This document shows, in pieces, positions 58,690-60,013 of a stretch of DNA of 64,000 bases. Below the pieces are notes generated by a model that did not search any database, had not been told where the DNA came from, and saw nothing but the letters and a program-made list of their open reading frames with translations. Within the stretch, counting starts at the first letter, position 1; every line of letters begins with the position of its first letter. Origin of the DNA: Oscillospiraceae bacterium (lineage in GTDB: Bacteria > Bacillota > Clostridia > UBA1212 > SIG427); the NCBI GenBank assembly GCA_015069135.1, contig SVJE01000002.1, positions 169,953-233,952 on the forward strand. The letters run 5' to 3'. The translations under genes were made by a program, and so were the position numbers.

Positions 58690-59133
58690 ATGAAAGTTGA
58701 AATTGTAAACCTGATAGATATGTTGGAAGAGATTGTTAACAATGGTGGCAAAGTTCCTTTTTCCAATAAAATAACTGTTGATAAGGACGAAGTTTTGTCA
58801 GTTCTTAATGAAATGCGTATGAGACTGCCTGCTGATATTAAATTAGCCCTTGAAATTATTGATGAGAAGCAGAGAATTCTTTTAAGTGCTCAGAAATCAG
58901 CTAAGGAAGTTATTGAAGAGGCTCAGCACGAAAGAGAAGAACTTATTGAAGAGCATGAGATCACTAAAATGGCAACTGCTCATGCAGAGGAGCTTGTTGA
59001 GAAGGCTCAGAATCATGCTAAAGAAATGCGCGCAGGAGCTACAGATTATGTAGATACAATGCTTGAAGAATTTCAGGAGTATCTTAAAGAAAAAATCAGA
59101 GAACTGGATGAAAACAGAAAAAGCTTAAGGTAA
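58690..59133 (+). CDS. Coiled-coil protein with DivIVA/ATPase-subunit-like composition
   Basis: A 147-residue hydrophilic protein. After about 45 residues (with KITVDKDEVLSVLNEMR) a long charged coiled coil extends to the end (IIDEKQRILLSAQKSAKEVIEEAQHEREE). Its composition resembles the C-terminal part of DivIVA-like or ATP-synthase B-like proteins, but no specific motif is visible. In Clostridia such a gene often follows coaD. GGGAG precedes the ATG. The last 38 bases overlap the convergent ylbJ gene. Confidence 0.7.
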   Translation: MKVEIVNLIDMLEEIVNNGGKVPFSNKITVDKDEVLSVLNEMRMRLPADIKLALEIIDEKQRILLSAQKSAKEVIEEAQHEREELIEEHEITKMATAHAEELVEKAQNHAKEMRAGATDYVDTMLEEFQEYLKEKIRELDENRKSLR

Positions 59134-60013
59134 TTATTGTTGCTATAAGTGTTTGAAAGATTTTTCCCAATATATATTTTTTGCATGACAAGCCGGCATT
59201 CGTGAGAATGCCGGCTACTTGTATGTGTACGGAAATTCCGGCCCAGGCAGATATGGCAGAAATGATGGTTAATTTTTTTAATGGGGACAGACACTCTGAT
59301 AAAACAGTGCGGTGTATACCAGATGTTATTTCCAGGATTCCATTTAGTGGGGACAGACACTGCGGAATTATATGAAGGGCATCAAGTATACCTGTAAGAG
59401 CAGCGAAAAATATTATAGCGGCAGCAATAGGTACCATACTCATCATGGAGTCAGTGAGAATTAATGGCAGAGATTTTTGTGGGGACAGACACTGAAATGG
59501 TTTGTTTGACATATTATTGGATTTTTCGGATTTGCATCTGAAGACCATACCGGTTAACAGCGCTGATAATACATGTATTATCCAGAGATATATGCCAAGA
59601 AGACTGTTTCCCAGCATAACTGCTCCTACTGTACCTATTATAAAAAGAGGACCACAGTTATTAGTAAATGCTGACAAAGTATAGGCTTCTTTTCTTGTAA
59701 TAAGATTTCTTTTATATAAATCTGCCGTAACTTTAGCTCCGGCAGGGTAACCACTAACCAGTCCGATGAAAATAGCGATACTACAGCTTCCGGAGAGACC
59801 AAAAAGTTTTTTTGTTACAGGTGTAAGTTTTTGAGAAGCCTTAATGGATAAATCTGAAGACATAAGTAAACCTGATGCCACATAGAAGGGAAAAACAGAA
59901 GGAAGAACCTTGGTAAAAAACATGTTTATACTATCTGCTACCACCGGTAGACAAGTATCAGAGCATAAGGCAAATAATACCATAAAACATATGGCTGTTA
60001 ACCCTTGTATCAT
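59096..60013 (-). CDS. ylbJ: Sporulation membrane protein YlbJ with three in-frame repeat insertions
   Basis: A 305-residue membrane protein with about eight helices. The core SGYPAGAKVTADLYKRNLITRKEAYTLSAFTNNCGPLFIIGTVGAVML (about 85-135) is the YlbJ family motif, a nucleoside-recognition-like fold needed for spore coat or cortex function. In the C-terminal half the peptide CLSP appears three times (QCLSPQK, QCLSPLN, ECLSPLK), each encoded by the complement of TGGGGACAGACACT. These lie at 66- and 132-base intervals and stay in frame. The protein is shorter than the roughly 400-residue Bacillus YlbJ. GGAGG precedes the ATG. Convergent overlap with the coiled-coil gene. Confidence 0.85.
   Translation of the reverse strand: MIQGLTAICFMVLFALCSDTCLPVVADSINMFFTKVLPSVFPFYVASGLLMSSDLSIKASQKLTPVTKKLFGLSGSCSIAIFIGLVSGYPAGAKVTADLYKRNLITRKEAYTLSAFTNNCGPLFIIGTVGAVMLGNSLLGIYLWIIHVLSALLTGMVFRCKSEKSNNMSNKPFQCLSPQKSLPLILTDSMMSMVPIAAAIIFFAALTGILDALHIIPQCLSPLNGILEITSGIHRTVLSECLSPLKKLTIISAISAWAGISVHIQVAGILTNAGLSCKKYILGKIFQTLIATIITLSFFCFHPVL
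59282..59494. repeat. Three copies of TGGGGACAGACACT within ylbJ
   Basis: Copies at 59282, 59348 and 59480 on the plus strand (59295 and 59362 and 59494 approximate ends). All three sit in the same codon phase of ylbJ, encoding CLSP on the minus strand. Distances are 66 and 132 bases. The 14-mer is unlike the surrounding AT-rich DNA. Confidence 0.9.

Follow-up and report, generated by a model that had tools for sequence, protein, structure and literature searches.

Repeats in ylbJ of an Oscillospiraceae bacterium belong to a locally crowded family that a TIRYT-type transposase may have spread, often by replacement

Mobile repeats are generally regarded as additions to the genomes that carry them, and as sequences that selection clears from essential genes. 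Short exact motifs within coding sequence are also known from matS, which is domain-limited, and from uptake sequences. TIRYT or TIRtron repeats (Di Nocera 2013, PMC3733652) belong to transposases classed as TnpA_Y1 subclass 2.1 (Quentin 2018, PMC6006769) and are inverted repeats with the consensus GGGGWSAS. Passages of the same papers report in-frame REPs in protein loops, and in PMC3733652 Rickettsia palindromic elements (RPE) are described as repeats in conserved genes with the frame kept.

The window, i.e., the whole 64,000-nucleotide stretch analyzed (G000:C4:169953-233952, genome G000, contig C4), carries three copies of TGGGGACAGACACT within one gene:

59096..60013, minus strand: ylbJ, the host gene, sporulation integral membrane protein YlbJ, 305 aa, TIGR02871 match
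59282..59295, plus strand: copy 1, TGGGGACAGACACT, antisense to ylbJ, upstream TTTT at 59276-59279, encodes ECLSP
59348..59361, plus strand: copy 2, TGGGGACAGACACT, upstream ATTT at 59342-59345, encodes QCLSP
59480..59493, plus strand: copy 3, TGGGGACAGACACT, upstream TTTT at 59474-59477, encodes QCLSP

The initial annotation had described three in-frame repeats spaced 66 and 132 bp that all encode CLSP in a common phase, and both statements hold: the start-to-start distances and coordinates are exact, and all copies run antisense to the gene and share a single codon phase, giving the peptide (Q/E)CLSP. The YlbJ open reading frame (ORF) matched TIGR02871 at 198.6 bits (E 1.5e-58), which is under the curated cut-off of 304.65. 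No further match to TGGGGACAGACACT was found in the window at ≤2 mismatches, and 100 shuffles of the window gave a maximum of 2 matches (mean, 0.35). A 66-bp tandem duplication was ruled out as the source of the spacing; because identity at offset 66 is merely 0.29 overall, the 66/132 ratio is probably a coincidence. Including its upstream part, the site in ylbJ reads TTTT-N3-GGGGACAGACACT, with ATTT at copy 2.

A genome-wide count revealed that the repeat is dispersed and not confined to ylbJ. In the 1.9-Mb genome (C3:16,001-88,000 and C8 being left out of the count), the 13-mer GGGGACAGACACT is present 49 times without mismatch, compared with 0 for the reversed control; 43 lie in C1:41,611-164,784, 6 lie in C4:229-275 kb at the contig end, and 0 lie elsewhere. 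In G001, the nearest relative, which is of the same family with ~50 to 75% identity per protein, sequences homologous to C4:289-303 kb and to C1:99-120 kb are ~5 kb apart on one contig (C2); the two zones are thus a single ancient neighborhood. In samples of other genomes (31 of the order and 391 of the class) the repeat occurs at most as single copies, none was found in viral contigs, and among the titles listed in a literature search on the motif, all concerned eukaryotes.

The motif reads TTTT-YRY-GGGGACAG-ACACTG, and the consensus of the copies, TTTTYRYGGGGACAGACACTG, is without a GTAG/GTGG foot. A 40-bp palindrome, AGTGTCTGTCCCCATGAAAATTTTCATGGGGACAGACACT, is found in exact or near-exact form at two sites. 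ORFs hold 47 of the 56 12-mers (~84%). The left part TTTTCAT is complete more often in intergenic copies (6/9) than in ORFs (7/47; Fisher P 0.003), which suggests a full element of ~21 bp. In partial copies the 5′ GGGGACAG is retained and variation falls at the 3′ end, with hardly any case of the opposite pattern; this octamer is 15-fold enriched without the 3′ half, and the 3′ half by itself is not enriched. Within C1:41-165 kb, GGGGACAG followed by another 3′ end (often ACCTTG) is ~15 times denser than elsewhere, and such partial copies may be a second subfamily.

The genome encodes three Y1_Tnp genes, one putatively REP-type and two IS200:

C1:120534-121340: putative REP-type transposase, 268 aa
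C1:53401-53757: IS200-type tnpA, apparently unrelated to the repeat
C5:82323-82679: IS200-type tnpA, apparently unrelated to the repeat

Both IS200-type genes match NF033573; they were rejected as the repeat source, as neither has copies at its ends and one is on a copy-free contig. The putative REP-type protein matches PF01797 (44 bits over cut-off), contains HIH and YIHNNP motifs, reaches 61 bits against NF047646 REP_Tyr_transpos (under the cut-off of 80), and has no IS200 equivalog match. Its ~130-aa C-terminal extension, where a TIRYT would be expected to have an HTH or Bac_DnaA_C domain, gave no Pfam match at E<1. The initial annotation had linked the repeat to RAYT-type transposases, and one RAYT-like gene, this one, does lie amid the copy cluster, in the densest stretch on C1; the median distance of copies to it is 19 kb, compared with 33 kb under uniform placement in the cluster. 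The link is strengthened by the repeat itself, since GGGGACAG fits GGGGWSAS, the terminal-repeat consensus that passages of PMC3733652 and PMC6006769 give for the group. Weak inward-facing candidate terminal inverted repeats (TIRs) flank the gene, AGGGACAGACACT at ~C1:118,676 (with a mismatch) and GGGGACAG at ~C1:121,578; as a pair, AGGGACAGACACT on the left and GGGGACAGTCTTTG on the right, they are imperfect.

Two neighbors of the transposase gene were also noted. An adjoining UvrD-like helicase gene was rejected as its partner, being already ancestral at the same place in the relative. An EPSP-synthase-type (MurA-like) ORF beside it (C1:121398-122471) is N-terminally truncated, fragment-like, and on the strand opposite to most of its neighbors.

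Similar crowding was found around two other TIRYTs, with mostly intergenic repeats. In Acetoanaerobium noterae, where a TIRYT is flanked by the TIR AGGGACGGTTCTTTTTGA, 27 of 29 cores fall in one 81-kb stretch of 2.63 Mb with the TIRYT within it; at these sites AATCA is fixed some bases upstream, and the bases directly preceding GGGAC vary, a layout (fixed upstream word, variable bases, core) that is the same as in the source genome. This 2.63-Mb sequence (NZ_CP154629.1) was deposited as a plasmid and has only 4 features in PLSDB; judging from its size, it may be the chromosome. Pseudoalteromonas sp. THAF3 has 11 cores in 801 kb, 10 of them in a 5-kb stretch, and a Sporomusa plasmid has one further TIR pair 10 kb off. 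In relatives from Skermanella, Paraburkholderia, Cylindrospermopsis, Collinsella, and Legionella, TIRs were not clear enough to count.

We consider it reasonably probable that the ylbJ repeats are copies of the TIR recognition core of the TIRYT at C1:120534 and that the enzyme spreads this core locally, mostly overwriting its own length. The core, TTTT-YRY-GGGGACAG-ACACTG, would derive from the terminal repeats of this HUH tyrosine transposase, which would spread it across short chromosomal distances, so that copies would accumulate only around the transposase. In the proposed mechanism, the enzyme would nick a TIR in single-stranded DNA (TTTTCATGGGGACAGACACTG is a candidate substrate for nicking and joining by the C1:120534 protein), and the nicked TIR would be joined to a nearby T-rich site at the same replication fork. 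The free 3′ end would then re-pair with the template, and the core would thereby replace a stretch about as long as itself, with no insertion; trimming of the 3′ end would yield a conserved 5′ core and a variable 3′ end, and selection would leave the frame-keeping outcomes. The observations behind this proposal are the family, its copy number and confinement, the location of the transposase, the likeness in two other TIRYTs, the mostly length-neutral copies in genes, and the conserved 5′ core with its variable 3′ end. From these we infer local, transposase-driven copying of a TIR core, often by replacement. Weighing against this reading are the imperfect TIRs beside the gene, the lack of a Pfam match in its C-terminal extension, and the behavior of the T-run and of the upstream positions described below. 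Among the titles listed in a literature search on short-patch illegitimate recombination, none dealt with that subject.

An unlikely alternative is that the copies are ordinary REP/TIR insertions of ~15 to 21 bp, kept in frame in protein loops, and that the length-neutral sites lost neighboring codons later. The initial annotation had read the ylbJ segments as insertions of this kind, and the comparison with relatives went against it. YlbJ proteins of Monoglobus, Vescimonas, Bacillus, and Paenibacillus (n = 4) have residues at all three copy positions, the gap expected of a frame-keeping insertion is absent from all 4, and at the 59282 site 3 of the 4 are of equal length (±1 residue). Deleting each 5-mer lowered the TIGR02871 score from 198.6 to 196.4, 196.2, and 191.4. 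Thus, the ylbJ copies appear to sit within preexisting YlbJ sequence and not to be additions. In G001 there was no ylbJ match; the interval where the gene is expected, from the coaD neighborhood to the next shared gene (contig C5, near L170:19,537 to L222:780), is short, and ylbJ may be absent there.

Other genes with copies include those we take, from reading their sequences, to be MurE, TruB, Mfd, MutL, and MutS, as well as MurF, whose identity is backed by PDB matches. At 25 copies alignable with the nearest relative, the net length change was 0 in 11, +1 to +3 aa in 6 (hence 0 to +3 aa in 17/25), +4 to +6 aa in 4, longer than +6 aa in 2, and shorter in 2; at control positions, 88% were unchanged and 1% were +4 to +6. 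Exact length-neutral copies occur in MutL, Mfd, MiaB, and TruB, and length-neutral 12-mers occur in MutS and RibF. An insertion does not fit GCLSPL versus GCESPL in MutS, nor WGQTL in TruB, which several relatives also have. Because the source genome is the only one of its genus, replacement is read from a relative with the above identity and not seen directly.

Clean insertions do occur, in TruB at C1:105046 (~30 relatives aligned; missing from relatives among the matches listed) and in MurF at C1:91081, and insertions of 3 to 8 aa are in excess in the cluster core only (22 versus 9 expected, P 2e-4), which is also in line with local spread by the transposase; the published in-frame REPs in loops (passages of PMC3733652 and PMC6006769) likewise favor insertion. 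In-frame repeats in genes thus have a precedent, and clean insertions are a minority of the copies. Insertion as the sole mode was rejected for ylbJ and for most alignable copies. Clean insertions and the excess of 3 to 8 aa do not explain most copies, which seem to have replaced existing letters. Presence of the T-run did not track with insertion or replacement.

It is improbable, in our estimate, that the repeat is instead a DNA site needed by a host protein (possibly a domesticated transposase), akin to matS or uptake sequences, that arose in genes by point mutation and selection. The upstream TTTT-YRY positions vary independently of each other and not as one copied block, which also suits a putative selected binding site; the relatives' aligned DNA at copy sites is somewhat nearer the motif than average, and density within ORFs is near random. 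However, the copies are clumped (10 intervals of <300 bp versus 5.2 expected, P 0.02), with 4 in TruB and 3 in ylbJ, clean insertions occur, and the other TIRYTs are equally crowded with mostly intergenic repeats. One-mismatch neighbors are not depleted, which counts against such a site; for the same reason we rejected the idea that most copies arose by conversion of natural near-matches.

A last reading is that the peptides GTDT, GDRH, and GQTL were reached by chance or by convergent codon usage. A few partial copies would fit it, in that their GDR/TDSR residues are conserved and their codons natural (MurE, RsmH, and MurF), but it is highly implausible and is refuted for exact copies. Coding DNA elsewhere in the genome (1.5 Mb) is without the 13-mer, and synonymous shuffling of the same genes gave 0.25 exact sense 13-mers versus 29 observed and 2.1 GGGGACAG versus 58 observed, which places the copy excess at the DNA level.

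Returning to local copying by the transposase, we tentatively raise a broader possibility, about which we are doubtful: that TIRYT-group transposases overwrite nearby DNA with their core by templated replacement, editing essential genes in their vicinity, and that such cis-local action is general to the group. If copies replace and do not insert, the enzyme would be a natural short-patch editor; if TIRYT repeats are always local, they would mark where the enzyme acted and its reach. In contrast to the expectation for mobile repeats, dozens of copies, all near one transposase, lie in MurE, MurF, TruB, Mfd, MutL, and MutS and lengthen them slightly or not at all.

Compared with known systems, the source-genome family is close to the TIRYTs described in passages of PMC3733652 and PMC6006769, with which it shares a small dispersed family of the TIR motif and, probably, a TnpA_REP-related tyrosine transposase with GGGGWSAS inverted repeats; it differs in that its copies are mostly in ORFs, largely length-neutral, and strictly near the transposase, a local confinement that those passages do not mention. 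It shares with REP/RAYT systems (GTAG REPs and REPINs) short nonautonomous repeats, a dedicated HUH transposase, and some in-frame intragenic copies, whereas it has no GTAG/GTGG foot, its single copies form no stable hairpin, and it occupies one neighborhood where REPs are genome-wide. RPE, as described in PMC3733652, likewise sit in conserved genes with the frame intact but are longer palindromic insertions, compared with 13 to 21 bp and mostly no added length here. Unlike matS and uptake sequences, the repeat is transposase linked and clumped, and some of its copies are insertions.
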